This document shows, in pieces, positions 13,841-27,263 of a stretch of DNA of 27,311 bases. The translations under genes and the position numbers were made by a program. The notes under the pieces are model-generated. The model saw only the letters and a program-made list of their open reading frames with translations. It had not been told where the DNA came from and made no database searches. Numbering within the stretch: the stretch's first letter is position 1; the number at the start of each line of letters is the position of its first letter. The stretch is taken from IMG/VR virus record IMGVR_UViG_3300050045_000003, positions 1 through 27,311 of that record. One strand, written 5' to 3'. This DNA comes from a virus.

Positions 13841-13863
13841 CTTTGACCTTTCTTGTGCGGTAT

Positions 13864-13941
13864 AAACAAAAACAGGGGAGGGGATTTAGCCAACGCAATG
13901 CGTGGACTCAGATCACGCACTTGGCGTGGCCTTCCCCTCCC
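13864..13941 (-). terminator. Long G/C hairpin followed by a T run
   Basis: On the minus strand a 9-bp perfect outer stem, GGGAGGGGA with TCCCCTCCC (13933-13941 and 13876-13884), encloses further pairing (GCCA/TGGC and TGCGTG/CACGCA). It is followed by TGTTTTTGTTT. It lies in the 123-nt gap between the HNH gene and the adaptor gene. It could be a transcription terminator or a folded 5' leader; the loop is large for a classic terminator. Confidence 0.5.
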
Positions 13942-13963
13942 AAGATTTACTACTGAAATTACA

Positions 13964-14440
13964 TTACGAGACGCTTGCTCGACAGGTTTTGGACTCAGAA
14001 CAAAACCACTTTCTAGCAAAAAGTCTCGTAAAGATCGTTCGCCATTTTCGGCAAAATCTAAAGTCCGTAGACTTAGTTCGCTTCTTGGAATTACACGTTT
14101 TACACAACGGCTGAAGGTTGTTCGGCCAACTTGTGCCACCTTTGCAGATGGGAATTACGTGATCCACTGTTAGACGTTTACGCTTACTACAGCATAAACA
14201 CCTAAACTTTACGGCTCTGCAAATCCTGAGCCATTGTGCAGGCGTTGTGAATCCTCCTGCCTGAGTTTTCCTAGTGTTTCTTGTGGCGGTGTACATGCAC
14301 GCCCGTTTTGGATGCGCTGACTTAAACAGACTGATCCGTAGACCAATTTCTAACTTGTTTCGTGCATAGCACTGACGTTGCTCCTCCCTATGTTTTTCAG
14401 GGTTTGCTTTTCGCCACGCACTTCTTTGTTCCTTGGTCAT
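13964..14440 (-). CDS. HNH homing-type endonuclease 3
   Basis: 158 aa. A basic N-terminus is followed by an HNH zinc-finger nuclease: CLCC at 81-84, the catalytic DHVIPICKGG at 93-102 (metal-binding His 94), then NLQPLCKTCNSKK (108-120) with the second Cys pair. These proteins cut double-stranded DNA to promote their own spread. It is the paralogue of the HNH genes at 20908 and 26555. The STDFR end of the domain is followed by about 30 residues that look like read-through into unrelated sequence. ATG 14440 follows GGAGG. The conserved structured leader (14441-14520) lies immediately upstream, directly after the stop of the 290-aa gene. Confidence 0.9.
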   Translation of the reverse strand: MTKEQRSAWRKANPEKHREEQRQCYARNKLEIGLRISLFKSAHPKRACMYTATRNTRKTQAGGFTTPAQWLRICRAVKFRCLCCSKRKRLTVDHVIPICKGGTSWPNNLQPLCKTCNSKKRTKSTDFRFCRKWRTIFTRLFARKWFCSESKTCRASVS

Positions 14441-14520
14441 GTTCCTCCATATAAGGTCGAACAGAGCGGTGTATATGGCACCGCCCTGCTCTAGCCCAGG
14501 CTTATAAGACCTGAGATTTA
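14441..14520 (-). ncRNA. Structured RNA leader of HNH gene 3 (copy C)
   Basis: Minus-strand RNA between the stop codon of the 290-aa gene (14521-14523) and the HNH start. It begins TAAATCTCAGG. Stem 1 is CAGG/CCTG. Stem 2 is a 12-bp hairpin, AGCAGGGCGGTG with CACCGCTCTGTT, with a CCATATA loop. A flanking TAG can pair with TTA, and the stretch CGACCTTATATGGAGG contains the ribosome site. The same arrangement lies before the two other HNH genes, with different bases but kept pairing. Role unknown; the CCT near the ribosome site can pair with AGG of the site, so translational control is possible. Confidence 0.75.
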
Positions 14521-15393
14521 TTACTTCTGTTCGGTTGGTAAAGTTGGCTTCGGAGCGACTGGTGCAGCGGGTGCGACTGCTGCGACTCTTGGTGCATACT
14601 TCTCGTCTTCCGTGGCTTCATAAGCCTGAGCACGACTGCGTGCACCTGCCTTGATAGCCTTGTCCCAATCTCCGACGCAAATGCCTCCACCTTCCATGGC
14701 GTGGAACGGTGCGCCGACGTTTGCTAGACCGCCGCAACGTGGGCACATGTCCTTGTGGACTGGCGAACCATGCCACGAAAATTGCTCGTGGAAGTAGTCT
14801 GCTGCCATGTGATGCTCTGGGCTGAGAGTATCAGCCAGTGCCTTCGGGTTGGATGTCTCCACCGTACGAGCCTGCTCCAACAGATGCTTGTAGCGTGCCT
14901 CCATACGTTTGTAGGCCGCTGCAACTTCCTCTTCTTTCGGAGGGTTAAAGAGAGACCAGAACACGCCTTTTTGACCCAAGTCGTTGCCTGTGCCTGTGAC
15001 TTGCTCAATCAGGGCGTCTTGGTTGATGCCCAGGTTGTCTGGATTGATGATGTCCATGGCGAAACGTCTAGTGTCCATTGCGCCGATGTCAATCTCGTTT
15101 GAGTCCACGTTTCCCTTTGGCGTCAGCAAAGGCTGCGGCAATCGGGTTACGAGTGAGTACTTCTCTGTGCTCTTGCGCGGTACAATGCGCATCTCCTTCA
15201 TGATTGGAGGACGAGACACAACGTGCTCTTGCTGCGACACGCTGTAGAGATACACAAAGTACTCTGGGTTTCGATTCAACAGGTAGCTCTGGGTCGCAAA
15301 GTTCCAGTCCACGTTGTTGATCTTGCTCAGACTAGCGGCGATACCTGTGTTGATTTGTTTGTTGCTGTAAAGTGCTGCGTTTATTTCTGGCAT
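14521..15393 (-). CDS. Conserved-type protein, 290 aa, paralogue of 17699 gene
   Basis: Clearly related to the 279-aa protein at 17699-18538. Both share LYSVS, a DINPDNLG-type block (here MDIINPDNLGINQD, there MDLINPDNLGLNQD), a GxFWS..NPP block, a basic helix ending KR(Y/F)xxLLEQA, SNPK, then TxxPEHHxAA(D/N)Y and WHG. After this shared core the present protein has an extra C-terminal part: CPRCGG (a zinc-knuckle-like pair) followed by ICVGD, then an Ala/Pro-rich tail. ATG 15393 follows AAGGA. It is in the head block, so a virion or assembly role is likely. I do not recognise the family by name. Confidence 0.7.
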   Translation of the reverse strand: MPEINAALYSNKQINTGIAASLSKINNVDWNFATQSYLLNRNPEYFVYLYSVSQQEHVVSRPPIMKEMRIVPRKSTEKYSLVTRLPQPLLTPKGNVDSNEIDIGAMDTRRFAMDIINPDNLGINQDALIEQVTGTGNDLGQKGVFWSLFNPPKEEEVAAAYKRMEARYKHLLEQARTVETSNPKALADTLSPEHHMAADYFHEQFSWHGSPVHKDMCPRCGGLANVGAPFHAMEGGGICVGDWDKAIKAGARSRAQAYEATEDEKYAPRVAAVAPAAPVAPKPTLPTEQK

Positions 15394-15417
15394 TTGAGTC
15401 CTTCTTATTGCTGAGTT

Positions 15418-16176
15418 TTATGTTGCTCTTCGTCTGAGTTCTTCTTGTGCCATGGTGGTATTCTGATCCATACCGTTGAGTCCTCGGCCCAAAGTTCGTG
15501 CGTTGCGCATCATGGCATTCCAGTTGCGCGTCATTGCTTCTATTTTCTTGTCCACCAGAGCCGTCCTGCAACCCTGCTTCTGGTATGAAACGGCGGCACC
15601 ATGGAACGGTAGTGCGCTGCTTCGCATGACATCCTCGATCATGTTGATGTCCGCTTGGTCTTCTTTCTCTTTCTGATCTTGGAGGGCGGCTTTAGTCTTC
15701 TCCCAAGATATTTCTTTTGCTTGTTGTATAATGGGCACAACTGTTTCGAGAATGAAACTATTCAACGGCATGGCTTCAAAAAGAAGTTTTCCATCTTTCA
15801 TTTCTGACCATCGTAGGTTGTACAGCATTCTATACCGACCATGGTACGGGTATTCTCCAAGAGTTTGCAGACCTGTTTCTTCGTCATAGTTCATAACATA
15901 GTAAGACTCAGGCGTGCCATACTCAATAGGGTCTTGCCACTGCATGAGCATCCAACTGGGAGTTCCGCCACCAGTCAGTAGGTTTCTGTATCCTCTGAAC
16001 CCGTCATGTTCCCAGTGTCCACCTGCTCTATAGAAACATTCATCTTCTCCACCTTGTGACCAACGCACTATGAAGTTTGGATCATCGTACCTATTTACGC
16101 TGCCAATTTCCGTCAATCTTTCTTGGAATTCCTGGGGGCATTGGTACTGCTGATACCTACTGGTTGGATCACTCAT
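15418..16176 (-). CDS. Unknown probable structural protein, 252 aa
   Basis: The first half is rich in Trp and aromatic residues (NPN-like DDPNFIVRWSQGG, then AGGHWEHDGFRGYRNLL and SWMLMQWQDP). The second half is helical and charged (IIQQAKEISWEKTKAALQDQ). No catalytic motif or membrane segment. The ATG at 16176 overlaps the stop of the endonuclease VII-like gene by 4 nt (ATGA), so it is translated from the same message as that insertion and the 109-aa gene before it. Its place among head genes suggests a structural or assembly protein. Family not recognised. Confidence 0.65.
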   Translation of the reverse strand: MSDPTSRYQQYQCPQEFQERLTEIGSVNRYDDPNFIVRWSQGGEDECFYRAGGHWEHDGFRGYRNLLTGGGTPSWMLMQWQDPIEYGTPESYYVMNYDEETGLQTLGEYPYHGRYRMLYNLRWSEMKDGKLLFEAMPLNSFILETVVPIIQQAKEISWEKTKAALQDQKEKEDQADINMIEDVMRSSALPFHGAAVSYQKQGCRTALVDKKIEAMTRNWNAMMRNARTLGRGLNGMDQNTTMAQEELRRRAT

Positions 16177-16589
16177 AGTACTTCACCGTGCTTCCTGAGG
16201 TATGCCGCCGCAGCCTCTAGTACAATTGGGCTGTCCTTTGCGTGTCCAAGTAATAAATTGCACGAATCACACAGTAAACCTCGTGGTTTTGGTGGATCAC
16301 CATGTTTGTGGTCGGCTCTAAGGTTTCCTTCTATGCGTCTGTTACAGATGTCACACACTCCATTTTGTTCTTTGAACGCCGCTTCATATTTTTCTAAAGT
16401 CCACCCGTTCTTCATTAGCGTGTTGTTTCTCACGATGTCGGTGTTCTCTCTGTACCAGTTGTGCATGTATGCTTTTCGTGCCTCTGGGTCAAAGCAAATA
16501 GGACAGTACGCCCTCGCCCTTCCTTCTTTTTTTACAGTAGGGTGACCTTTAGAACAGAAACCGTTCTTTTGTCCTTTTTGTCTAGGCAT
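16173..16589 (-). CDS. Endonuclease VII-like nuclease B
   Basis: 138 aa from ATG 16589 (GGAGG 9 nt upstream, inside the end of the preceding gene). The N-terminus has a zinc finger of the CSKGH...CPIC type (12-32). The C-terminal half is an endonuclease VII domain: CDIC (79-82), RADHKHGD (91-98) with the catalytic His pair region, then PRGLLCDSCNLLLGHAKDS (102-120), the signature around the second Cys pair. Phage T4 endonuclease VII resolves DNA junctions, but small free-standing copies like this usually act as homing-type elements. It sits in a gene junction with an 8-nt overlap before and ATGA after, so the host operon is not disrupted. Confidence 0.88.
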   Translation of the reverse strand: MPRQKGQKNGFCSKGHPTVKKEGRARAYCPICFDPEARKAYMHNWYRENTDIVRNNTLMKNGWTLEKYEAAFKEQNGVCDICNRRIEGNLRADHKHGDPPKPRGLLCDSCNLLLGHAKDSPIVLEAAAAYLRKHGEVL

Positions 16590-16911
16590 TGTTGACAGCC
16601 TCCGTGCCCACTTCAGCCACCATCTTGGCACGCATCTCAGCCATCTGAGCCTTCTTCACTTCCACATAAGCGTCCATCTCTTGCCGTAACGAAATCATCT
16701 CTTCTGGCGTCTTTGCACCCAACTTCCGTTCAAAAATGAAGTTTATCAAAAGCGCGGCTGTGTCGGCCATGCCAATGAGTTCGGCGTCGTTGGCTCCCAA
16801 CTTGTTGAACACCTTCTGGACTTCACGCCGAGAAATTGGGCTATCCCAAAAAGGATCGTGCGCTGGGGTGATTAGTTCCTTCTGCCCAGGTTGTAGGATG
16901 AGGCTACTCAT
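16582..16911 (-). CDS. Unknown protein, 109 aa
   Basis: The start chosen is ATG 16911, which overlaps the stop of the GroES-like gene by 8 nt; a longer frame to 16959 would only read back through that gene. The product has an SPISRREVQKVFNKLGAND stretch, a hydrophobic helix (TAALLINFIFE) and a charged C-terminal coiled coil (EEMISLRQEMDAYVEVKKAQ). Small helical proteins of this kind are frequent between head genes, but I cannot name the family. Translation is coupled with both neighbours by overlaps. Confidence 0.6.
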   Translation of the reverse strand: MSSLILQPGQKELITPAHDPFWDSPISRREVQKVFNKLGANDAELIGMADTAALLINFIFERKLGAKTPEEMISLRQEMDAYVEVKKAQMAEMRAKMVAEVGTEAVNNA

Positions 16912-17683
16912 CGGACACCTCGGGTTTAACTTCCTGCGCACACTCAGCACAAACCACAAACAGAGGGTCCTCTGCTGTAATCGGAGGCTCTACGCCGCGT
17001 ACGTCTTGGACACGCACGACGCGCAGACCATCTTCATCTTCGAAGTAGTTGAATTGCACGGCATCACACAGAGCCATTACACGCTCTTCGGACATGGTGA
17101 ATACTTCGGAGTTGTAGTCTCCGTAGGTGACGCGGTCTCCAACACGTACGACTTCTTCCATTGGGATGCGTTGCCCACCGAGAATGACGAACTTTCCAGC
17201 GGCCAAGACAACACCGATATTGGAATGCTGCCGATATTTGGCTGCGATGATGAGTCCTGTTTTCTTGTTCTTGACACTGCCATCTTTGAGCAACTCCATG
17301 TTCTCGTTCTCTGTGCACCGTTTGATGAGGATGCGGTCGAGTATGGGATTGAAAGGACCGTAGGTCTTATCTGGATACTTCTTTGGTGCCACTGCCACGG
17401 CATCCACTTTGGTATCCTGACCCATAAAAGTTGAACGCTTGTCAATGACAATGAGGTCACTGCCAACTTCTTGTCGGTTTGCCACTGGCTCCAGAGAAAT
17501 GCGCTCTCCTGCTTCTCTGCGGCCAATGTATTGTCCGAGTTCGGCAAAGCTGATGCCATACTTCTCTTCTATGCCTTCACGTCCGACTGCGATGTCGGTT
17601 TCGAATTCACTGAGTTCACTACCGCCTGCTGCAAACTGTGCGCTCTTCGCGCCACGTGCTAAAACGTCTCCACCTGAGTTCAT
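16904..17683 (-). CDS. GroES-like co-chaperonin domain protein
   Basis: 259 aa, ATG 17683 after CAGGAG. Residues about 112-210 match the pattern of the Cpn10 fold: NPILDRILIKRC (like the GroES start RPLHDRVIVKR), a KTGLIIAAKY stretch in the place of the mobile loop, SNIGVVLAAGK (like RGEVLAVG), VVRVGDRVTYGDY (like VKVGDIVIFND) and EERVMALCDAV at the end. A 110-residue N-terminal part is not GroES-like, and the C-terminus carries a CAEC pair. Known parallels are T4 gp31 and other phage GroES analogues that help the host GroEL fold the capsid protein. The MCP gene is nearby (with a mobile endonuclease unit and the 279-aa gene in between). Confidence 0.75.
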   Translation of the reverse strand: MNSGGDVLARGAKSAQFAAGGSELSEFETDIAVGREGIEEKYGISFAELGQYIGRREAGERISLEPVANRQEVGSDLIVIDKRSTFMGQDTKVDAVAVAPKKYPDKTYGPFNPILDRILIKRCTENENMELLKDGSVKNKKTGLIIAAKYRQHSNIGVVLAAGKFVILGGQRIPMEEVVRVGDRVTYGDYNSEVFTMSEERVMALCDAVQFNYFEDEDGLRVVRVQDVRGVEPPITAEDPLFVVCAECAQEVKPEVSDE

Positions 17684-17698
17684 TGAGTCTCCTGAGTC

Positions 17699-18538
17699 TT
17701 ACAAAAATCGTACTGCGTCAACTTCCCTTGCCAGAACCTTTAGTTCTGCGAGTCTTTCACCATGCCAGATGTAGGTGCCGCCCATGTAGTTTGCGGCTGC
17801 ATGATGCTCTGGTGTGATAGTGTCTCTCAGCATTTTTGGATTGGACTTCTGTACGGCGTCCGCTTGTTCCAGAAGAAACCTGTACCGCTTCTTCATGCGC
17901 TTGATGGCTTTCTTGACTTCCATCTTGCCAGGAGGGTTCTTTGGCGACCAGAAAATTCCCATGTCGCCTAGGCTTCGTCCGTTAAACCGTCCGCATCCCA
18001 GCAATTCGTCTTGGTTTAAGCCTAAGTTATCTGGGTTAATCAAGTCCATCGCAATGCGTCTGCCGTCTTCGAATACTGGCTCCATTTGCCCTGAATCTAC
18101 ATTCTGTTTCAGCCACCGCATGATGCGAGGTATGCTGGTGACAACCGCGTATTCTTGTCCCTCTTCAACAGCGGGGAACTTAACTTGCTTTAGGATTGGG
18201 TGATGGACTGTTTGGTGCGCCATGCGGCTCACACTGTAAAGCCATATCTTGTCCTTCGGTAGAACAGGGATGAGTCCGTAGTGTGCGAAGTCATAATGGA
18301 AATCCGCGTTGCTACCTCTTTCCAAACTTTCGGACAGTTCCTTGTTGTACTTCTTTATTTCAATCGTTGGCCCTACAGCATACGGACGCACGACTTCAGT
18401 ATCCACAAAAGTGACCGTGTGTTTTGGTCCCATGGATATTACTACGGGTGGTTTTGGTTCATGTATTACTGGATTCGGATGCTTCGCCAGCATTTCTGCA
18501 AGCGTAGGTTTCTTCTGAGTTTTGAAAAATTCGAACAT
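17699..18538 (-). CDS. Conserved-type protein, 279 aa, paralogue of 14521 gene
   Basis: It shares with the 290-aa protein a core of about 165 residues, from LYSVS (near residue 100) to the WHG near its C-terminus, including MDLINPDNLGLNQDELL, MGIFWSPKNPPG, KRYRFLLEQAD and ITPEHHAAANY. It lacks the extra Cys-pair and Pro/Ala tail of its relative and instead has an N-terminal extension rich in Pro and Lys. ATG 18538 follows CTCAGGAG. It comes first after the terminator of the endonuclease VII unit and precedes the GroES-like gene by 15 nt. Function unknown; head-block location suggests a virion component. Confidence 0.7.
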   Translation of the reverse strand: MFEFFKTQKKPTLAEMLAKHPNPVIHEPKPPVVISMGPKHTVTFVDTEVVRPYAVGPTIEIKKYNKELSESLERGSNADFHYDFAHYGLIPVLPKDKIWLYSVSRMAHQTVHHPILKQVKFPAVEEGQEYAVVTSIPRIMRWLKQNVDSGQMEPVFEDGRRIAMDLINPDNLGLNQDELLGCGRFNGRSLGDMGIFWSPKNPPGKMEVKKAIKRMKKRYRFLLEQADAVQKSNPKMLRDTITPEHHAAANYMGGTYIWHGERLAELKVLAREVDAVRFL

Positions 18539-18566
18539 TGAGTCTCCTGAGTTTTTTCTGAGTTAT

Positions 18567-18617
18567 GCCCTCAAAGCCAGCCACGCGATGCTATGCGTAC
18601 GTTGACTGGCCGAGGGC
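18567..18617 (-). other. 51-nt nested hairpin in the leader of the 279-aa gene
   Basis: The outer stem is GCCCTC/GAGGGC, then GCCAG/CTGGC, then ACGC/GCGT with an 8-nt loop, on the minus strand. No T run follows, so it is not a simple terminator. It resembles in layout the hairpin at 13876-13941, which also lies between an inserted endonuclease and a structural gene. Function unknown. Confidence 0.5.
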
Positions 18618-18619
18618 GA

Positions 18620-18646
18620 CTGTCTTATCCGCATAGGATTAGACAG
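18620..18646 (-). other. Hairpin CTGTCTAATCC/GGATAAGACAG
   Basis: Two 11-base arms with one A-A mismatch around a 5-base loop, between the terminator at 18661 and the nested hairpin at 18567. The run of three hairpins fills the 158-nt gap between the endonuclease and the 279-aa gene. A processing or stability role is possible but not shown. Confidence 0.45.
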
Positions 18647-18660
18647 AACTTTTTGAGCAG

Positions 18661-18691
18661 CAAAAAGCGCCCCAAGATTCAGGGCGCTTCA
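18661..18691 (-). terminator. Intrinsic terminator after endonuclease VII gene A
   Basis: On the minus strand AAGCGCCC and GGGGCGCTT form a strong G/C stem with a short loop, immediately followed by TTTTT. It starts 5 nt after the endonuclease stop and would end its transcript before the 279-aa gene. Confidence 0.8.
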
Positions 18692-18696
18692 TGGTG

Positions 18697-19092
18697 CTAA
18701 TTTCGGTATGAGTCTAAGTACTTCAAGGCTCGTTCGAGCCACGTTCCCAGCTTCGGTGTGATTGCTCCCATTTTGAGAACATCTTCCACTGCCGCCAGTC
18801 TTCTATTGCACGGCCCACACAGTAGTCCTCGGTTGCATTCTCCACATGCTCTCTTCAAAGTTATTGGCTCTGAACAGCATTCGTGATCATGGTCTATGTG
18901 TAGCCTCTTCTTTGCGTCTCCTTGCTTGGCTTTGCATAAGGCGCAGTGACCATGCTGTTCTCGCAATTTGTTGTCATACCATTCTGGAGTTGTGCGAAAC
19001 CTTCCGACTACAGATCGTCTTCGTAGGTTTATGCGTTGCTCCTCTGGTATGTTTTTGTACCAGTCTTTCATGTACCGCTGTCTGGCGTTCAT
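18697..19092 (-). CDS. Endonuclease VII-like nuclease A (self-contained unit)
   Basis: 131 aa from ATG 19092, preceded by AGGAGG at short spacing. The nuclease domain reads CALC (50-53), LHIDHDHECC (64-73) with the DHDH catalytic block at 67-70, then CGECNRGLLCGPCNRRL (83-99), the endonuclease VII zinc/nuclease signature. Unlike endonuclease B it is not embedded in an operon. It has its own candidate promoter (19152-19180) and leader hairpin, and its own terminator (18661-18691), and lies just after the terminator that ends the MCP message. It therefore looks like an autonomous mobile unit, placed next to an intron-split capsid gene. It might cut intronless MCP alleles, but nothing in the sequence proves the target. 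Confidence 0.88.
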   Translation of the reverse strand: MNARQRYMKDWYKNIPEEQRINLRRRSVVGRFRTTPEWYDNKLREQHGHCALCKAKQGDAKKRLHIDHDHECCSEPITLKRACGECNRGLLCGPCNRRLAAVEDVLKMGAITPKLGTWLERALKYLDSYRN

Positions 19093-19108
19093 TTCCCTCC
19101 TCTGCAAA

Positions 19109-19150
19109 GGTTTGGTAAAAGCCTTGTTGCAGCAAAACTTCTACCAAACC
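19109..19150 (-). other. Leader hairpin of endonuclease VII gene A
   Basis: A perfect 9-bp stem, GGTTTGGTA with TACCAAACC, around a 24-nt loop on the minus strand, ending 16 nt before the start codon. It lies between the candidate promoter and the ribosome site, so it would be in the 5' leader and could affect translation. Confidence 0.65.
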
Positions 19151-19151
19151 A

Positions 19152-19180
19152 ATGGTACCACACCTGCAAGTGTAGTACAA
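19152..19180 (-). promoter_or_regulatory. Candidate sigma-70-type promoter with internal palindrome
   Basis: On the minus strand TTGTAC (-35 like, 19175-19180) is separated by exactly 17 bp from TACCAT (-10 like, 19152-19157); each hexamer matches the consensus at four positions. An inverted repeat, GTACTACAC/GTGTGGTAC, covers most of the same stretch and could be an operator or a second hairpin. It is the only promoter-like site I find for the endonuclease after the upstream terminator. Confidence 0.45.
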
Positions 19181-19198
19181 GGAGAATACATATCCGAC

Positions 19199-19222
19199 CA
19201 AAAAGGACCCGTAAGTCCTTTA
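19199..19222 (-). terminator. Intrinsic terminator after the MCP gene
   Basis: On the minus strand AAAGGAC and GTCCTTT pair across a 6-nt loop and run into TTTTT. It lies 5 nt after the TAG stop of the second MCP exon (19227), which supports that stop as the true end of the capsid gene. Confidence 0.75.
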
Positions 19223-19226
19223 GAAT

Positions 19227-19319
19227 CTAGACTGTAGGAACTGCGGCGTTTTGCACATAGAGGCCAGCGCGTGGCGCGGCGTTTGCCAGATTGAAACAAG
19301 TGTTGTCAAGTTTGTTGCA
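19227..19319 (-). CDS. Major capsid protein, exon 2 (C-terminal end)
   Basis: Thirty in-frame codons plus TAG. They encode CNKLDNTCFNLANAAPRAGL followed by YVQNAAVPTV, a natural-looking protein end with no start codon or ribosome site of its own. It lies immediately after the group I intron core and before a terminator. Joining it to exon 1 would give a capsid protein of about 451 aa. The 3' splice site is placed after a G at a codon boundary: either before TGC (19319, used here) or one codon earlier, before GCG (19322). The join is inferred; the fragment itself and the intron core are read directly. Confidence 0.75.
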   Translation of the reverse strand, partial: CNKLDNTCFNLANAAPRAGLYVQNAAVPTV

Positions 19320-19497
19320 CGCCTGAGCGTGGTGAAATCATTTCTGTTTCACTCTTACGGTTTTGTTCCCGTAATGTTCGGACTATTGCATCATCCCATA
19401 GGATGTTTCTTCGCTTAGTCTCTCAGCGTCCCTTTCGGGTTCGCCCTCGTTGGCGTTTCAGCGTTCGAGTCAATCAGAAGAAATTTTAGTTGCCCCC
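19320..19497 (-). ncRNA. Group I intron interrupting the MCP gene
   Basis: Minus-strand RNA with the group I catalytic core. The R-like element GAGAGACTAAGCG (19412-19424) and the S-like element GCAATAGTCCGAAC (19376-19389) form P7 by GACTA/TAGTC. P8 is CATCC/GGATG with loop TATG (19392-19405). P3 can be CGCT (19460-19463) with AGCG (19412-19415), and the P4-P6 region holds CGCC/GGCG and CCC-GAAA-GGG. P9 is TTACGG/CCGTAA (19355-19374), then GTGAAA/TTTCAC (19332-19352). A possible P1 pairs exon GAGTT with GACTC, giving the usual U-G pair at the 5' splice site (after 19498). About 178 nt and without an ORF, it is very small. Exact ends are uncertain by a few bases. Confidence 0.85.
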
Positions 19498-20760
19498 AAC
19501 TCTCGTTAAGGCAAACATGTGTGAGGTAAGGTAGCTGCCTCCCACGGTCCCGATGTCGGGCACTGGTGCAACGACGTTGCCACCACCGAAGTCATACAAC
19601 TCCAGAGGGGACAACTCACCGATGTACCAGTTCTCCATCACGAGAAGGTCCATGCGGCTTGCGGTTGCAGTCCAAGACTTGTGGTACTTGCGTCCACCGA
19701 ACGTGTCCGAGAAATACTTCTTGGACATGTCGAGCGTCTTGTCTCCCTTGATTTCCTGTGCATTGGCAATCTGAACGTTGTACATCAAGTTCGACTGCGC
19801 GAATGCTTGCTCAGGAGGGCCGTACCAGATGCCTGACTTGATGCTGTCGGCGTCTGGGCCAAGAGCGCGGCCCAATAGTACTTCTGCACGCTGCGCGATT
19901 CCAGGCGTGATTGCAGCGCCACCCAAGTTAATGGTTGGTGTGCTCAAGCGACCAGGATACGCATTGCGGTTCAAACCACCGATGGTGCCAGTGTTGGAGT
20001 TCACATCCCAAGCCTTGATACCGAGGATGGAGTTTCCAGACCCATACGACGCACCGTTGACAACGATGTAGTCGGTTGCGACCACGTCCGTTGGCAGAGC
20101 CGTGCTGAAGAACAGGGTGTTGCTTGGCCCATCAGAGTAGCTGATGGTAGCTGTGGTAGCTCCACCGACTCTCTGCACGCCAGCCGTGCTGTAGAACTTC
20201 ACAACCTGTTGGTCGGTGAAGGCCACTGCGACGTTGACTGGGGAGATGCTGGCGGTCTGGGCGGCGGGGACTCCACCAGCCAGAACGATGACTGCCGTGG
20301 CAGGAATCTGGTCGATCATGCCCGAACCATCCGAGTTGATCAAGCCTTCAATTCCCTGCATTGCAGCGTCCAGTGAGTTCTTCATTTCCTGGGCCTTAAC
20401 AGCGAATAGCCCCTTCTGCTTGGAGTCTGTGGAAGCCTGAGCTAACCACGAGATTTCGCAAACGTTGAAGAGGTACACTGGTGCCAGAGCGAACGATGCC
20501 CACTGTGAACCAGACCCACGCAGCATTGAATCTGCGTTGCCAGTTCCTTGCGAGATTGCTGCACCAGCCTGAACCCTGAAGGGCACGCGGAATGATGCAC
20601 GCTGCGTTCCACCAGCATTGGACTGGTTGGACACAGGAATCTTTGTTGCTTCCGCCTTGAACATGGAATATGCCGTGGTCCCGTGAAACACGAGATCAGG
20701 TATCTCTTTCGCAAAGGCGTCTAACTCGACCGCTTCAACAGCGGCCTCTAATAGTGCCAT
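19498..20760 (-). CDS. Major capsid protein, exon 1
   Basis: 421 codons from ATG 20760 (AAGGAAA upstream). As an unspliced frame it continues through Gly-Gly-Asn to a stop at 19486, but those last codons lie in the intron. The product has the character of a tailed-phage major capsid protein: a helical N-terminus, a Gly/Ser/Thr-rich middle with a loop region (PFRVQAGAAISQGTGNADSM), the FNVCEISWLAQASTDSKQKG helix, and a long beta-rich part to MENWYIGELSPLELYDFGGG. Its position after a scaffold-like gene and before head genes is as expected. An HK97-type fold is assumed from this context, not shown. It is probably the most abundant protein made here, and one that must be spliced. Confidence 0.8.
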
Positions 20761-20907
20761 AAAAGTATTTCCTTAAAACAAAGTACCACATTGCAAGATG
20801 TCTGAGTTCTTGCAGGTCTGGCGCCGAGTCTGTACTCTTTCTTACCACGTCTTCACCTTGTCGAGTTTTAAGTCTTCAAGACCATTCAGGTGTTGATAGT
20901 GTTTAGA
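20761..20907 (-). other. 147-nt leader of the MCP gene
   Basis: Gap between the HNH gene and MCP. It holds a 7-bp hairpin, TGCAAGA/TCTTGCA (20792-20814), a small GAGT/ACTC hairpin, and the ribosome site before ATG 20760. I see no convincing promoter. The long leader before the capsid gene may matter for message stability. Confidence 0.5.
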
Positions 20908-21408
20908 TCAAAAACTGCTTCTAAAATCGGTTGTGCCAGTATGCTTGTGAGCATTACATGGCATGCACAAAGGTTGAATGTTTGAAATGTTGCTAGTTCC
21001 ACCTTTGGCTATTGGGATAACGTGGTCAGGTGTCAATTTCTTACTCTTGCGACAACACAAACACACATTTCCAAATTTGTTGCATAACGTCATCCATTGT
21101 TCAGAAGTATAGGCACCGCCAGCCTTGGTTTTAGCCGCACGACGTTTATGTGTTCGTGCATTGGCTGCTTCTGGATGTGCTTTCCTATATGCTGCATTGC
21201 GTTTGGTAATGCGAACTTTATCTCGTTTGTACCGAGCAGCGTTATTTGCTTTGATGCGCTTCTTGTTCTTCTTTGCCCAAGCGCGGTACATACCATTGGC
21301 TGATTCTCTATTTGCATCGCGCCACTTCTTTTGGTACGCACGGTTCTTCTTTGGATGCTTCTTACGAGACTTTGCGGAGTACTCACGCATATATTCTTTG
21401 GTTTTCAT
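20908..21408 (-). CDS. HNH homing-type endonuclease 2
   Basis: 166 aa. A very basic N-terminal half (KSRKKHPKKNRAYQKKWRD, and repeated K/R-rich segments) probably binds DNA. It is followed by the HNH zinc finger: CLCC at 116-119, DHVIPIAKGG at 128-137 (His 129), NIQPLCMPCNAHK at 143-155, and a TTDFR end. Paralogue of the HNH genes at 13964 and 26555. ATG 21408 follows GGAGG, and the shared structured leader lies directly upstream. It separates the 69-aa gene from the capsid gene, an insertion into the most highly expressed part of the phage. Confidence 0.9.
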   Translation of the reverse strand: MKTKEYMREYSAKSRKKHPKKNRAYQKKWRDANRESANGMYRAWAKKNKKRIKANNAARYKRDKVRITKRNAAYRKAHPEAANARTHKRRAAKTKAGGAYTSEQWMTLCNKFGNVCLCCRKSKKLTPDHVIPIAKGGTSNISNIQPLCMPCNAHKHTGTTDFRSSF

Positions 21409-21494
21409 ACTTCCTCCATAATAGGTCGCCTAGGCGGGTGATTATGGCACCCGCCCAAGCTAGCCCACGCTGATCAAGGCGTGAGATTTTATTT
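21409..21494 (-). ncRNA. Structured RNA leader of HNH gene 2 (copy B)
   Basis: Minus-strand RNA starting AAATAAAATCTCACG, 5 nt after the stop of the 69-aa gene. Stem 1 is CACGC/GCGTG. Stem 2 is a 12-bp hairpin, CTTGGGCGGGTG with CACCCGCCTAGG, around CCATAAT. TAG before stem 2 can pair with CTA in CGACCTATTATGGAGG. It has the same order of parts as the leaders at 14441 and 27182. Confidence 0.78.
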
Positions 21495-21499
21495 ACAAC

Positions 21500-21709
21500 T
21501 TACAGCGATTGCGAAGCAATCACGTCAGTCGCAAGCACCGTAATGTTGTACGGAACGTTGGGACTCAACGGGTTTGCAGCCGCACCGTTGCAAGAAGCCG
21601 TGAGTGATGCTTGGCTTCCTGAACCTGTGACTGCTGTTACTGTTGCTACAACGGAGATTTGGTCTCCGACTTGGACGGGCTTGCCGTCTCTGGTTGTACC
21701 TGATGCCAT
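21500..21709 (-). CDS. Small beta-rich protein, 69 aa
   Basis: The ATG at 21709 follows AGGAG at 6-nt spacing. The product begins with a short Lys/Asp segment (GTTRDGKPVQVGDQISVVAT) and continues with alternating Val/Thr/Ala strands, VTAVTGSGSQASLTASCNG, which suggest a small beta domain. Such small beta proteins before the capsid gene can be head-decoration proteins, but I see nothing specific. It lies 26 nt after the scaffold-like gene and is followed by the HNH insertion, which separates it from MCP. Confidence 0.6.
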   Translation of the reverse strand: MASGTTRDGKPVQVGDQISVVATVTAVTGSGSQASLTASCNGAAANPLSPNVPYNITVLATDVIASQSL

Positions 21710-21735
21710 GATGTTCTCCTATTTCTTTTTGGTAT

Positions 21736-23253
21736 TTACTTCCGCCACGTGACGAGTCGGAAACTTTTGCCATCTGTGCCCTTTACGAAGCCACGTCCAG
21801 CAATCTGCATCGTGATAAGGTCGCTTGAGGAGTACGTTCTTTCCCCAATCTTGACTTCATCCCGAATAAGGTTTGTGGGTCTCGTTGCAACGTAAATCGG
21901 CTTTCCTGAGGATACCGATTGTGCACTGGCTGTTGTAGTCGCTGTCTTCTTCACAGCCGCCGCTGCAACACGGCCTGCTGCTGAGCCACCCTTGGCATAG
22001 CCTGGGTACTTGGTCTGAATCGTCTTGGTCACAATTTCGTTTGCGATTGAGTCAATCTTGCCGTTGTGATAGACGGCGATTGCTGCTTTGTTCTCTGGGG
22101 TGTTGCCCTTTTTCCAGAATGCAGCCATCTGAGCCTGATAGCCCTTGTCGGCCTTCAGTGTGGCGTAGAGACGTTCCTTGATACCGTTTCCGATGTCAAC
22201 TTTTGTTTCACGCGGGAAATCTTTGAAGTAGGCCATCCTCAAGAACGGGGCGAATGCCGCGCCGAGTGTGCGGTTATTGTAGTGTTCCGCATCGGTGGCA
22301 ACGCTTTCCTCGAACGCCTTAATCTTGGCTTGTCCATCGGCAGTTTTGGATTTCTCAAACTCTGCCTTCTCAGCCAAGAACTTCTTGCGCTCTGGTGTGT
22401 CCTCGACAACTTTCTTCTTGTTGGCATCTTCTGCCTGTAAACCCTTGAACCACTCGGTCAAACCACCTGGGTTCTGTATCAACGCCTTGAGAGTCGCAAC
22501 GTCTGGTGCTGGTTTTCCTTCCGCATCCTTGGCGTTAAGAGCGTTGTTCAGGCTCTGAACCATGCCGTCCATGCGTGACTCTATCAAACCCTCAAAAAAT
22601 ATGGGCTTGGTCACGCCATAGTAGGCATCAGCGTCGTGTTCCTTCAGCGTAGACATGAACGACGGTGCCAACTGACCTAAAGCCTCTGGGTGTCCAGCGG
22701 TCTTTATGTCTTCGACTACGTTCTTCCAAAGCTGTGGGTCGGAGGTGTACAGTAATTCATCCGATGCCTTGACAGCCTCAACCGTGTTGTTCAACTTCTC
22801 GTAGCCTTCGGTTCCACCGATACTGGCGATGAAATCCTTGGCTTCCTGCATCTCTTGAACGCCATTGGGGAACACTGCCTTGGCTGCGTTCCAACGTTCA
22901 AATGCTCCGTGAAGTTCCTTGACTACCGCGCCATTGGCAGGAGAAGCGTCACGCATGGCTTTTAGGGCCTTGCGTACGTTGTCTGGTGTGGCCTTGGTGT
23001 CAATCAGCTTGTCGGAGGCCGCAGTCTTTGCTGCCGCCGCTGCTTTAGTCTTGAATGATTCTTGCTCTTCCGCAGACTTTTCTGAGCCGTCTACATTGTG
23101 TGTTTCAGTTTCTTTCCCTGCTGCTGCTGGGTCTACAACTTCGGCTGCGGGGTCTACAACTTCGGCTGCGGGGTCAACTACCTCTGCTGCCACTGGGTCT
23201 ACAACTTCGGCAGCGGGTTCTGCTGCTGCGAAGTCAATCAAATCTTCTGCCAT
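21736..23253 (-). CDS. Probable capsid scaffold protein
   Basis: 505 aa, ATG 23253 after AAGGA. The N-terminus is acidic with tandem AEVVDPA repeats (about 14-45), followed by an Ala/Lys/Glu-rich, largely helical and highly charged body with long coiled-coil-like stretches (KKFLAEKAEFEKSKTADGQA). The C-terminus (from about 415) is basic and ends with a compact region, FVKGTDGKSFRLVTWRK. Such charged helical proteins just before the capsid gene are usually internal scaffolds that guide shell assembly and bind the capsid protein through a basic end. No protease motif is visible. The call rests on composition and position. Confidence 0.6.
   Translation of the reverse strand: MAEDLIDFAAAEPAAEVVDPVAAEVVDPAAEVVDPAAEVVDPAAAGKETETHNVDGSEKSAEEQESFKTKAAAAAKTAASDKLIDTKATPDNVRKALKAMRDASPANGAVVKELHGAFERWNAAKAVFPNGVQEMQEAKDFIASIGGTEGYEKLNNTVEAVKASDELLYTSDPQLWKNVVEDIKTAGHPEALGQLAPSFMSTLKEHDADAYYGVTKPIFFEGLIESRMDGMVQSLNNALNAKDAEGKPAPDVATLKALIQNPGGLTEWFKGLQAEDANKKKVVEDTPERKKFLAEKAEFEKSKTADGQAKIKAFEESVATDAEHYNNRTLGAAFAPFLRMAYFKDFPRETKVDIGNGIKERLYATLKADKGYQAQMAAFWKKGNTPENKAAIAVYHNGKIDSIANEIVTKTIQTKYPGYAKGGSAAGRVAAAAVKKTATTTASAQSVSSGKPIYVATRPTNLIRDEVKIGERTYSSSDLITMQIAGRGFVKGTDGKSFRLVTWRK
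23129..23215. repeat. 21-bp tandem repeats in the scaffold gene
   Basis: Four copies of a 21-bp unit on the plus strand: two identical (23129-23149, 23150-23170), one degenerate (23171-23191) and, after 3 extra bases, one with a single change (23195-23215). They encode the AEVVDPA repeats near the scaffold N-terminus. The number of copies could change without shifting the frame. Confidence 0.9.
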
Positions 23254-23300
23254 TTTGAGTCCTTCTTGTTTCTGAGTTTTCTGAGTTCTTGTCCTGAGTC
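23254..23300 (-). other. Cluster of ACTCAG motifs before the scaffold gene
   Basis: The 47-nt gap contains GACTCAGGA, AACTCAGAA, AACTCAGAA and GGACTCAAA on the minus strand, spaced 10-17 nt, just before the ATG at 23253. The same short motif recurs before other genes of this window, often joined to the ribosome site as CTCAGGAG. Confidence 0.55.
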
Positions 23301-23927
23301 TTAGGAAGTGTATTCAGCACTGTTTTCTACGCCGAAGAGAACTTCCACGCTGTACTTCCCGTCGTCTTCCAGATACACACCCATGGTGCCCCCTGGTTCT
23401 ACGCTTTTCTCGCTACTTTCTTGCCGCCTGTCTTTGGTGCCAGTGACAAGGTTCTCCACTGTTACCAGATTTGAATTGTGCATGACGTACACGCCGAGTT
23501 CATCTTCGTTCCTAAACTCCTTGTCGAAGTACTCTTCTAAACGAGTTGTGAGTTCGTCCAGTGATTCGCCTTCTGGAATTTCTTTCTCTGGGTTGTCTAT
23601 GTAGAAGTCCAAGATGTCTTTGTAAACATCTTTGTTCTTCCCAGACAAGAACCCCAGATTCCAAGCGATGAGACTTCTGTCCTGAACCACTTCCAGTCCC
23701 AGTTTCTCTGCGATGATGTCAGCCGTCTGCACAGCCCTAAGCATGGGCGAGGAGACCACTTTCTTGATCTCCTTGCCGTGATGCTTGGCTATGTCTCTGG
23801 CCGCTGCTTCGGTTTGCTTTATACCCTTGTCATTTAAGGATGGGTCTAGGCGAGAACGGTATACGTTTTCGTCGTTCGCCTCTGTGTCCCCATGGCGTTG
23901 AAGTAACGCTATCAGCTTCTTGGCCAT
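23301..23927 (-). CDS. Histidine phosphatase (phosphoglycerate mutase-like) family protein
   Basis: 208 aa, ATG 23927 after GAGGAG, 1 nt after the portal stop. The N-terminal LLQRHGDTEAN has the RHG nucleophile motif (11-13) of the histidine phosphatase superfamily. DKGIKQTEAA and VSSPMLRAVQTAD (58-70, with the phosphate-binding Arg 64) follow in the usual order, and VYVMHNSNL (147-155) supplies the second catalytic His (150). The acidic proton donor normally found between them (LxE..xG) is not obvious in SLIAWNLGFLSGK, so activity may be reduced or altered. Substrate unknown. Such a gene between portal and scaffold is unusual. Confidence 0.85.
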   Translation of the reverse strand: MAKKLIALLQRHGDTEANDENVYRSRLDPSLNDKGIKQTEAAARDIAKHHGKEIKKVVSSPMLRAVQTADIIAEKLGLEVVQDRSLIAWNLGFLSGKNKDVYKDILDFYIDNPEKEIPEGESLDELTTRLEEYFDKEFRNEDELGVYVMHNSNLVTVENLVTGTKDRRQESSEKSVEPGGTMGVYLEDDGKYSVEVLFGVENSAEYTS

Positions 23928-23928
23928 G

Positions 23929-26613
23929 TTATCTCCTCAATTGACGTGGTTGCTCACCTTGCCCTGGTTGCGGCGGTCCTTGCTGTTGTGGTGCTTGTTT
24001 CGGTGCCTTCAGCGCCTCTGGTACCGCTTTGGCGGCTACCTTGCTCTGAAGTTGATCGTTGGCTTGCTGTGCGAAGTCCTGCGGTGTTGCCTGAATTTTC
24101 ATCTTCGCTAACGCCTGCACTGCCACGCTTGCTGGCATCTTGCTAACGTCTACGCTGATGGACTCTGAAGGCGGTTTGTCAGGCGGTTGGTTCTGCGCGG
24201 CAATCTGTTTGGCCATCTTCAAGTGCTCTGACCAGTGCATGTGCACGTTCTCGTAACCTGCTTGTTGCTGTGGATTACCACTGTGGAACTTCTGTCCCTC
24301 TGTGGAGTTCATCCACTCGAAACACTCGTTCGCTTCTACAAGGTGGTTTTCACTCTCGTCCTGAGCAACTGGAACCGTGCTAATTTGCGGTGGGGTGGCT
24401 TTCATAGCCTGACCCAACTGAGCAACCATGGCTTCATGCTGTGGCAGAACTGGTTGTCCAGTCTGTTGAGCCTGCTGCATACCTGACGTGGCTTGCTTCA
24501 TGGCGTCTTGCATCTGAAGGAACTGAGGATTGTCGTGCGGACCTGTCCTCAATAAGACTTCAAACTCATTACGCTGTTTAGCCGCTGACGATGCACCTGG
24601 GATTTTGAATCCCTTCATACGCAGCGCATCCAAAACTTCAACTGAGTTGGACGGCGAGAATATGATGGCGTTCAAGGCTTGGTTGGTTGCGCCCTGTGTG
24701 ATAAGTTCCTTTAACTTGCCTTCTTTCTGTTGCCAAGTTTCTGGGAAGGCTGGATTGTTCTCTGCATAGCAAAGGACATTTCCTGCCAGCAAGTTTGCGG
24801 TGTTGACCGCAATGTTGCCCTTACCTTTGATGTTCTGTCGGATCGTCTTACCATCTCGACATTCGGCTGCGCACTTCACGGCCTGTTGCGCTGCGGCTGC
24901 AAACATGTCCTGTACTGAATTCCACGGACATCCTACACGCTGCAATGCTTGGTCACGCTGAATTACTGCATTGCCTACCGTGTTCTCGCCAGTTGCGGCA
25001 CCGAACAATGAAGGCAGAGCGCCCGAGATTTCCTCGGACAAACTCGTGATGAACCATTTGATAAAGTCAGGCAACGCGGCTTGCGGCTGCGGAGTAGGCT
25101 CTACCATGATGTACTGGGCTTCTAACGTGAGTCCAGGTTGCGGCAGGAAAGGTCCTGTGCTTCCTGGGACGTTTGGTTGAGTCTTGAGCGCTTCCATATC
25201 GAAAGCGTCAGCGTTCATCCACTTCTTGGGGACGGTTCGTTTGAAGAAGTCGTCCAACAAGTCTACCCAGTCATTGATTCTCTTCTGAATCGAGATGAGC
25301 ATCGTACCCATGGCTCTGCGGTTCTGACCTTTGCCAGCCCACGGGTGACCGATAACAAGGTGGTCGTCCATGCTCTCGTTACGTGAGAAAGCGTACTCTT
25401 GCCCAGCCCTGGCCAGCAATGCTCCGTTAGGGAATGCTTCCAGCAACTCGGCCTTCGCTTCATCGCTCACTGATTGGTCTAGGAACATTGACGGCCTAAA
25501 CCAAGAAAACTTTACTGTACTGTGTCGGTTCAGAGAGTCGCCAGTGACGTACGCACCAACTACTGCTTGGCGCACATTCTCTCTTGCGATTCTGTCCAAC
25601 TGAGTCTCTGACATCCCATCGGTGCCTGGATTGATCTTGCTGGCAATCCACGGGAACATACCACGAACTACCGCTACGTCTAAGTCTAGAGACAACTGCA
25701 CGAACTGCATGAGGTCAAACGTATCAACAGCGATAGGGACTTTGTGATCCAATTTTCCGTGTACGGTTGTGACTTCTCTTCCAAGAGGCTTTCTGTCGTC
25801 GCCTGCATTGCCTGCTTCTGTGAGCAGGTCTTCACCGCCGTTGGTTGGCTCTGGCTCCTCTTCGGACGGCTCCTCGGATGTTTGCGCGTCCAGTACGTCG
25901 TCAAGGGCTTCTTGTCCCGTTGGCTCTGCGTCTGGCTCATTGAATACGTCTTCAGGAACGGTTGGTACTTCAGTTTCTCCTTCGAAACCGTACTTTTGTC
26001 CGTTCAACTCGTAGCGCGTCCACATAAGGACACGGTCTTCATTCCAGAAAATCCTTGCGCACTCGGTGAGCAAACTGTGAAGGTTATTGTTACGCGCCCA
26101 TATCTCTTTGAATCTGTCGGCCTCTTCTTTTGCGACTCTGTCTGGGCCGTACTCTGGGTTTACTGGGAAGAACTCGACCTTAGGGACTTCACGCGCTAGT
26201 GCTGCGACAATGATGTCACCTTTGGGGCCGTAGATGTTGGTATCGTAAATTGAAGCGGTGTTCTTCTGGTCCTTGGCGCTGTATCCTGTACCAGCACCTG
26301 GGAGTTGCCATCCGCCTTGCTTGCCACGAAGTAGATGTTGGTACCCACGCTCAAAGTGCAGCGCTTCCCACGCTTGCTCTACTTCCATGCGGCGTGCGGC
26401 TGTGTCAGTCTTGGTTGCTATGTTGTCGAGACCAATGAGGGCACCACGTGCTGCATCGCTGAGTTCTGCGAACGGCTCTGGACTGTACGGGAAGGGGCTA
26501 TAAACGCCGAGAGGACTTTCGTTAGGATTTTCAGGTTGAGAATCACTGCCTCCCTTAGCGCCTTCCATACCAGTCCCAACATTGCTGGGAGTCGAAGTAT
26601 CCGTTTCCGCCAT
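23929..26613 (-). CDS. Portal-like protein 1, 894 aa
   Basis: ATG 26613 follows AGGAG. The order of parts fits a large P22-type portal: a disordered Pro/Ser-rich N-terminus (1-55), a first domain with EIWARNNNLHSLLTECARIF and EDRVLMWTRYE, an acidic Glu/Pro-rich insert (about 215-275), HSTVKFSWFRPSMFLDQS, then SMDDHLVIGHPWAGKGQNRRA and a long helix with LISIQKRINDWVDLLDDFF, as in portal stem regions. After about residue 690 there is a Gln/Pro-rich tail (QQGPPQPGQGEQP), possibly internal to the capsid. The following scaffold and MCP genes support the role. A second portal-like gene follows terL; which is the true connector is undecided. Confidence 0.7.
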   Translation of the reverse strand: MAETDTSTPSNVGTGMEGAKGGSDSQPENPNESPLGVYSPFPYSPEPFAELSDAARGALIGLDNIATKTDTAARRMEVEQAWEALHFERGYQHLLRGKQGGWQLPGAGTGYSAKDQKNTASIYDTNIYGPKGDIIVAALAREVPKVEFFPVNPEYGPDRVAKEEADRFKEIWARNNNLHSLLTECARIFWNEDRVLMWTRYELNGQKYGFEGETEVPTVPEDVFNEPDAEPTGQEALDDVLDAQTSEEPSEEEPEPTNGGEDLLTEAGNAGDDRKPLGREVTTVHGKLDHKVPIAVDTFDLMQFVQLSLDLDVAVVRGMFPWIASKINPGTDGMSETQLDRIARENVRQAVVGAYVTGDSLNRHSTVKFSWFRPSMFLDQSVSDEAKAELLEAFPNGALLARAGQEYAFSRNESMDDHLVIGHPWAGKGQNRRAMGTMLISIQKRINDWVDLLDDFFKRTVPKKWMNADAFDMEALKTQPNVPGSTGPFLPQPGLTLEAQYIMVEPTPQPQAALPDFIKWFITSLSEEISGALPSLFGAATGENTVGNAVIQRDQALQRVGCPWNSVQDMFAAAAQQAVKCAAECRDGKTIRQNIKGKGNIAVNTANLLAGNVLCYAENNPAFPETWQQKEGKLKELITQGATNQALNAIIFSPSNSVEVLDALRMKGFKIPGASSAAKQRNEFEVLLRTGPHDNPQFLQMQDAMKQATSGMQQAQQTGQPVLPQHEAMVAQLGQAMKATPPQISTVPVAQDESENHLVEANECFEWMNSTEGQKFHSGNPQQQAGYENVHMHWSEHLKMAKQIAAQNQPPDKPPSESISVDVSKMPASVAVQALAKMKIQATPQDFAQQANDQLQSKVAAKAVPEALKAPKQAPQQQGPPQPGQGEQPRQLRR

Positions 26614-27181
26614 GATTCTCTCCTAAGGTCTCTCTGTAGTCAATAATCTTTGTGCCCTTCTTAGAATTACAAGGTTGGCATAAAGGCTGTATATTCCATA
26701 GCCAACTTGGTCCCCCAAGCGCAACAGGAATTACATGGTCGGCTGCTAACGGTTTTACTTCTCTGCAGCAAGCGCACTTAAAACCACACGCAAAGCACAA
26801 AGTGAACCATTCTTCGGCGGTAAAGTACCCACCAACAGCTTCGGCTATGGCTCGTCGTTTGTGAAAGTAAGAACGCAGTTTGTCTGGGTTTTCTTTCTTC
26901 CATGCAGAGATAGCATCTTTGCATTGCTCCAGATTGTTAAGGCGATACTCTTTGCTCTTGGCTCTGAGTGCTACTAAATTCTCTCTTCGGTAATCCTCGT
27001 GTCTAGCAGTGTTCTCTTCTGGGTGTGAATCTCTCCACTTTTTCCCTGCTACACGGATACTTGCGTTGTAGCATACTCTACAGCGTCTTGTGGGTCGAAC
27101 TCGGTCAGGTCTAGGATTTACAATGGTATTTTCCGTAGTAAACTCATGACCCTTCATACAATGTGTGCTTAGTATTTTCAT
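26555..27181 (-). CDS. HNH homing-type endonuclease 1
   Basis: 208 aa, ATG 27181 after GGAGG. An N-terminal zinc finger, CMKGHEF...CRVC (8-37), is followed by a basic linker and the HNH nuclease: CACC at 136-139, DHVIPVALGG at 148-157 (His 149), NIQPLCQPCNSKKG at 163-176. Paralogue of the HNH genes at 13964 and 20908, which have the same finger spacing but lack the N-terminal finger. The domain ends at IIDYR; the last 25 residues are read from the ribosome site and first codons of the portal-like gene in another frame (59-nt overlap), so they are probably by-products of the insertion site. Confidence 0.9.
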   Translation of the reverse strand: MKILSTHCMKGHEFTTENTIVNPRPDRVRPTRRCRVCYNASIRVAGKKWRDSHPEENTARHEDYRRENLVALRAKSKEYRLNNLEQCKDAISAWKKENPDKLRSYFHKRRAIAEAVGGYFTAEEWFTLCFACGFKCACCREVKPLAADHVIPVALGGPSWLWNIQPLCQPCNSKKGTKIIDYRETLGENHGGNGYFDSQQCWDWYGRR

Positions 27182-27263
27182 TGCTGTCCCTCCATAGGAC
27201 GCTCAAAGCGGGTGATGGAGTCACCCGCCGAGCTACTCCACGTTAATTAAGCGTGGGATTTTA
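27182..27263 (-). ncRNA. Structured RNA leader of HNH gene 1 (copy A)
   Basis: Minus-strand RNA beginning TAAAATCCCACG, next to the stop of the gene before it. Stem 1 is CCACG/CGTGG. Stem 2 is GCGGGTGA/TCACCCGC inside an outer GCTC/GAGC. TAG before stem 2 can pair with CTA in CGTCCTATGGAGG, which carries the ribosome site. Matches the leaders at 14441 and 21409 in order and in pairing. Confidence 0.75.

Follow-up and report, generated by a model that had tools for sequence, protein, structure and literature searches.

Concealment of a ribosome binding site (RBS) by mRNA structure has been described for the homing endonuclease genes of I-TevI, I-TevII and I-TevIII, and for segB and Aeh1 mobE (PMC2988022). 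In the T-even cases individual hairpins are used, often with a late promoter in the hairpin, and intron-encoded enzymes are included (PMC2988022). The leaders described here were found in a 27.3-kb piece of a tailed-phage genome (the whole stretch analysed, hereafter the window) and in its relatives. They resemble the T-even leaders in that they precede phage homing endonuclease genes and in that the ribosome site is predicted to be hidden in mRNA structure; the feature by which the T4-type leaders are recognised, an RNA structure pairing the SD sequence of such a gene, is thus predicted here as well. They differ in their recurrent P1/P2/P3 kissing-loop architecture, in serving unrelated free-standing enzymes, in being absent from the intron insertions examined and in showing no promoter recognisable by eye.

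The HEARO/OMEGA RNAs, which accompany IsrB, IscB or IshB, are likewise structured, belong to mobile units and lie immediately 5′ of the gene for an endonuclease. The present leader differs in being common to GIY-YIG and EndoVII genes, and the window proteins are without a RuvC or PLMP domain in Pfam. Group I introns (RF00028) are also mobile, RNA-structured and tied to homing endonucleases, and are found in the capsid genes of the same phages. The leader is distinguished from them by its size (~80 nt), by its position between genes after a stop codon, and by giving no RF00028 match, though the search finds introns in the loci of relatives. Loops of 6-7 nt paired over their full length are known from the ColE1 RNAI/RNAII kissing loops and from loop-loop riboswitches, some of which control a ribosome site. 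Unlike those, the leader contact is predicted within one mRNA, with one of the two loops being that of the ribosome-site hairpin. No long conserved unpaired core resembling the ligand-binding core of a riboswitch was recognised in the leaders, nor did Rfam provide one. The window leaders had no Rfam match at the gathering score or at E<=1, HEARO and RF00028 included, which agrees with the original prediction that no named RNA family has this layout. A search of the open-access literature found no description of a homing endonuclease leader with a kissing loop. Functions of this type are known; what appears to be new is the architecture and its sharing among enzyme families.

Four leaders in the window

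The terminase, portal-like, capsid-like and tail genes of the window lie on the minus strand and were assigned mostly by position and sequence. No match to the capsid or the portal was found in INPHARED, a collection of cultured phages, with whose members the terminase shares only 21-25% identity, and a capsid search of GTDB genomes found none. Three minus-strand genes encode HNH_5 homing endonucleases (Pfam PF14279/PF01844). These are 13964..14440, with its ATG at 14440; 20908..21408, upstream of the capsid gene 19486-20760; and 26555..27181 (from the ORF list), the 3′ end of which overlaps the start of the portal-like gene 23929-26613. An EndoVII-type HNH endonuclease gene (PF02945) is located on the same strand at 18697..19092, with a likely ATG at ~19092. 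The window endonuclease proteins match HNH_5/HNH or Endonuclease_7 only in Pfam, with no RuvC and no other extra domain.

The HNH_5 genes are preceded on the minus strand by leaders 1, 2 and 3, which share a single RNA fold with compensatory changes. The common order is (A)AATCYCA, hairpin P1, TAG, long hairpin P2, CG(A/T)CC(T), GGAGG and ATG. As had been proposed, each leader starts close to a stop codon, at most about 7 nt past the TAA of the gene upstream. The apical loop of P2 is complementary to the loop of a small third hairpin, P3, whose 3′ strand is the SD sequence, a pairing overlooked at first.

In leader 1 (14441..14520; covariance model score 86.9 bits, training member), P1 pairs 14515-14510 with 14500-14495 and P2 pairs 14491-14479 with 14471-14459. 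The kissing helix joins the P2 loop 14478-14472 (CCATATA) to the P3 loop 14453-14447 (TATATGG), and the P3 stem pairs 14456-14454 (CCT) with 14446-14444 (AGG of the SD). Leader 2 (21409..21494; 75.9 bits, training member) has P1 at 21485-21479 with 21470-21464, P2 at 21460-21448 with 21440-21428, the kissing helix at 21447-21441 (CCATAAT) with 21422-21416 (ATTATGG), and P3 at 21425-21423 (CCT) with 21415-21413 (AGG). Leader 3 (27182..27263) scored 31.5 bits and was not a training member; its P1 pairs 27256-27252 (CCACG) with 27242-27238 (CGTGG), and a bulged P2 pairs 27233-27222 with 27214-27201. The kissing helix is formed here by 27220-27215 (CTCCAT) and 27195-27190 (ATGGAG), and P3 by 27200-27197 (GTCC) and 27189-27186 (GGAC).

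A divergent form, leader 4 (19099..19176, minus strand), was detected by the loop/RBS scan before the EndoVII-type gene and was missed by the search with covariance model R1. Its P1 occupies 19176-19157 and its P2 pairs 19150-19133 with 19126-19109. The kissing helix joins 19132-19127 (CTGCAA) to 19107-19102 (TTGCAG), and P3, 19110-19108 (CCT) with 19101-19099 (AGG), overlaps the last P2 pairs. The same form is found before EndoVII genes in four relatives (L030, L032, L046, L061).

The original prediction of three leaders with one fold, in which stem changes keep the pairing, was borne out, the structure covarying at a level reached by 0 of 500 shuffles. Its statement that all three HNH genes carry the leader holds for the HNH_5 genes and was incomplete, as a fourth HNH-type gene (EndoVII, ~19092) has the divergent copy and a second EndoVII gene (16173-16631, minus strand) has none. 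Two NUMOD3/GIY-YIG-like genes on the minus strand (7427-7933 and 8699-9172) also have no leader. Two of these three leaderless genes overlap the end of the gene upstream, which suggests translational coupling in place of a lock.

Pairing of the P2 loop with the ribosome-site hairpin

A scan for hairpins of at least 8 bp with a loop complementary to the RBS matched the window four times, on the minus strand in each case and immediately in front of an HNH-type gene. In 100 first-order Markov shuffles the mean number of matches was 0.18 and the maximum 2. This figure shows how rare the pattern is; it is no independent test, the scan grammar having been drawn up once the pairing in these leaders was known. 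More independent tests were provided by a loop test on MFE folds and by a covariance model blind to the kissing pairs. When the P2 loop was taken from the MFE fold without looking at the RBS, it was complementary over 6 nt to its own RBS region in 59 of 77 endonuclease leaders; the 77 come from a set enriched by its collection with HMMs built from scan-found genes. Loops and tails taken from different leaders were complementary in 2.3%, and leaders of distant phages in 0 of 9. Covariance model R1, which contains P1 and P2 only, gave 80 unique matches, and exact loop/RBS kissing complementarity was present in 73 of them; the 80 include the training rows, which came from the loop/RBS scan.

Pairs were counted in small sets of equal loop length (A7, A8, A9). 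Among 18 leaders, 24 of 27 pairs were changed on both sides, which none of 500 shuffles reached, and 92% of the cells in this alignment were paired as against 36-50% in slid controls. The mark of a kissing loop, complementary loops kept by compensatory change, is seen here in compensatory double changes at 6 of the 7 kissing pairs, both in A8 and in A9; the 100% pairing of this helix in the two sets reflects the selection of exact complements. P3, which was not selected for, has compensatory changes in 3 of 4 pairs in A8 and 2 of 4 in A9. None of 500 shuffles and no slid version comes near the kissing and P3 pair counts.

The bases on either side of the RBS partner pair with one another at positions 1-3 in 96, 99 and 93% of leaders (cross-leader 90, 89 and 70%) and at position 4 in 51% (cross-leader 27%). 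Because these flanks pair with each other, the RBS partner is taken to be the loop of hairpin P3 and the contact to be a kissing loop. An H-type pseudoknot between the P2 loop and a single-stranded RBS was considered and rejected, since about 5 nt would need to span a 13-bp stem and the flanks proved complementary and covarying.

An intramolecular kissing loop is thus predicted to bury the ribosome site; in 56 of 66 leaders P3 or the kissing helix takes in the whole SD sequence. A pairing between CCT and the ribosome-site AGG, as had been proposed, proved to be real, being the covarying P3, and covariation in all four helices supports the selection on RNA structure that had been put forward.

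Enzyme families and the inserted unit

Loci from viral contigs were gathered mostly around 58 capsid homologues. The loop/RBS scan of these loci gave 51 unique matches, nearly all before endonuclease genes of four families, assigned first by motif and later by HMM. Because the same scan supplied the genes from which the endonuclease HMMs were built, the fraction of genes with a leader is biased upward; for EndoVII, the alignment proved too divergent to be used in scanning the collection. Of the 80 matches of the blind covariance model, 71 precede classified endonucleases, namely GIY-YIG (27), EndoVII (25), HNH_5 (13) and other HNH-like enzymes (6), and most of the remainder precede a further HNH-like family recognised by motif reading. 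HNH_3 genes are also preceded by the leader. None of 80 bacterial-genome loci matching a short leader pattern had a covariance model match, and the pattern matches there are due to chance.

The leader is therefore not tied to small HNH proteins; it precedes at least four unrelated families of free-standing homing endonucleases. The special link to small RuvC-less HNH proteins that had been proposed is not supported, given the presence of the same leader before GIY-YIG, EndoVII, HNH_5, HNH_3 and other genes, and one insertion site occupied by different endonucleases, each with its own leader.

In a loop/RBS scan of three genomes (~300 kb, read in pieces) 23 matches were obtained, 17 of them before classified endonucleases. 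Of the others, most stand before genes that have a MUG113 domain or motifs resembling those of endonucleases; one resembles noise. The sole clear leader before a non-endonuclease gene is at ~51730 of genome G001 (L166); this gene (331 aa, no Pfam match) is directly followed by a GIY-YIG-like gene, with which it may form one cassette. Some endonucleases in leader-bearing genomes are without a leader, as are most GIY-YIG relatives in other phages. The leader gave no match in three relatives whose capsid identity is 59-61%.

Comparison with phages lacking the insertion was possible at the portal/next-gene site. In the window and in L026 the portal gene ends in CAATTGAGG, which is joined directly to AGATAACATGG of the next gene. 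In L007 and L027, CAATTGAGG is followed by CGTTAA, the leader and an EndoVII gene, and the insertion ends in TACAGG before AGATAACATGG. In a pattern scan of viral contigs, L006 and L007 had turned out to have the same or a very similar leader at the portal site, with an EndoVII-type gene in the place of HNH_5. L006 and L056 differ again at the portal/next-gene site, where another EndoVII gene and a GIY-YIG gene are found, both with leaders of their own. Close relatives in which this site is empty have no leader; the gene and its leader thus appear to travel as a single inserted unit. To judge from these junctions, the unit appears to bring a synonymous Arg codon and a stop for the upstream gene, and its 3′ end appears to provide the RBS of the next gene. 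The original suggestion that the leader marks the insertion holds at this site, where it comes and goes with the gene; a part in directing the insertion does not follow.

A resident phage element behind which endonucleases jump was also considered, and was rejected for the portal/next-gene site, where geneless close relatives have no leader; other sites were less closely read. Apparent deletion relics are seen in L029 (5906-5980), where the leader is retained with P3 cut off, and in L234 (4804-4881), where leader and RBS are retained and the endonuclease is reduced to its last codons.

Group I introns of the same phages provide a second class of insertion. The capsid genes of relatives L045-L079 contain up to four intron-sized insertions each, several of which match RF00028 in Rfam. 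Scans of 38 such insertions in capsid genes found no leader copy; 24 of the 38 hold ORFs of at least 100 aa, which, where read, look mostly LAGLIDADG-like by eye. The capsid reading frame of L066 has a 49-nt gap (6175-6223, residues 21/22), too short for a group I intron, which may be an insertion, an error or a bypass-like element.

Readings of the leader

The explanation favoured here, with a probability of roughly 0.75, is that the leader acts in cis as a portable RNA lock, holding down translation of free-standing homing endonuclease genes. Past the stop codon of the gene upstream, hairpin P1 and the 12-13 bp hairpin P2 would form in the mRNA. The 6-7 nt loop of P2 would kiss the 6-7 nt loop of P3, a hairpin of 3-5 bp whose 3′ strand is the SD sequence. 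In the usual form the GG of the SD would lie in the kissing helix and the AGG in P3. P3 is short and would be held by the kissing helix, leaving the SD buried. The 30S subunit could then not readily bind, and little endonuclease would be made from an abundant structural-gene mRNA. Since the fold starts past the stop codon, ribosomes on the upstream gene would not need to melt P2. We infer from the modelled structure that the leader lowers translation; a fold covering the SD could instead be opened efficiently or even help initiation. The same lock would be used by the unrelated endonuclease families of the phage group, and it might be opened by RNase III cleavage of P2, by a phage protein, or by nothing.

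That one covarying architecture serves several unrelated nuclease families, and apparently moves with them, suggests that selection favours quiet expression as a property of the mobile unit itself. A loop-loop lock would be small and modular, any complementary pair of 6-7 nt loops being sufficient. In this phage group the leader may aid the annotation of endonuclease starts and insertion boundaries.

A constant throttle could be replaced by a regulated switch, in which a phage protein, a metabolite or RNase III acting on P1/P2 opens the RBS at a set time and the endonucleases of a genome form one regulon. We consider this possible, but it is not the reading we would choose. P1 is kept in nearly all copies though it makes no contact with the RBS, and its loops fall into a few recurring types (UUAGCGG, CUUGAUCAG, ACUAAUUACC, CUUAUAA, GUUGCUC, CGACGG); the retention of P1 with such loops may allow for a factor acting in trans. 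A genome of ~100 kb has as many as nine leader matches, and the leader is confined to one phage group while the enzyme families are not. Against a switch, the P1 loop types differ between copies within one genome, leaving no single conserved binding site, and no factor or ligand is known. In a fuller form, held equally tentatively, the selfish genes would make up a genome-wide RNA regulon. Each endonuclease, whatever its family, would bring a leader of the one kissing-loop class, and a signal acting in trans and shared by the phage group, whether RNase III cleavage, a ligand or a phage RNA-binding protein that acts on P1, would unlock all of them at the same time.

Timing could also be imposed by a late promoter inside the leader, giving a short transcript in which the lock cannot form and thereby restricting translation of the endonuclease to late times. 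This arrangement has been published for I-TevI, with similar ones for segB and mobE (PMC2988022). It is unlikely for the present leaders, in which the 5′ strand of P2 varies freely in sequence and the conserved unpaired stretches are short; inspected by eye, the alignments show no common promoter.

More doubtful still is that the sequence acts as DNA, as a homing target or recombination site, or as a terminator or processing site, with pairing incidental to translation. The leader is indeed placed at the 5′ edge of the insertion, and its inverted repeats are strong. However, the empty portal/next-gene site is without a leader, which is thus not a resident target there, and pairing persists through changes of sequence, G-U pairs occurring in P2. 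In addition, all 71 covariance model matches in the 84-locus set lie on the strand of the query gene, the coding strand where examined, and P2 is not followed by a U-run in the leaders read. The original prediction had also allowed for a guide RNA of the HEARO/OMEGA kind, serving the encoded nuclease. Such a role would fit a structured RNA directly 5′ of small HNH genes but is very unlikely indeed, because unrelated nuclease families, GIY-YIG included, share the leader and one site carries different endonucleases. Burial of the RBS is needless for a guide, Rfam gives no match and the HNH proteins match only HNH domains in Pfam.

Two further elements were noted. A tandemly repeated element, ATTTCAGTA..AATCTTRGGGGGAG...GATCTGAGTCC...CTCCCCCTATGTT, is located at ~13830-13960 of the window (minus strand) and in the g290>ttA intergenic region of most relatives. 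It has a conserved CTGAGTCC and is apparently structured, with stems that seem to covary by eye, and it has no Rfam match in the window. In the gap between the HNH and capsid genes (~20765-20900, minus strand), and at the same place in relatives, a conserved stretch of ~150 nt (GATCTAAACACYATC..CCTGAATG..CTCGACA..GACGTGGTAAG..) looks non-coding and is possibly another structured RNA.
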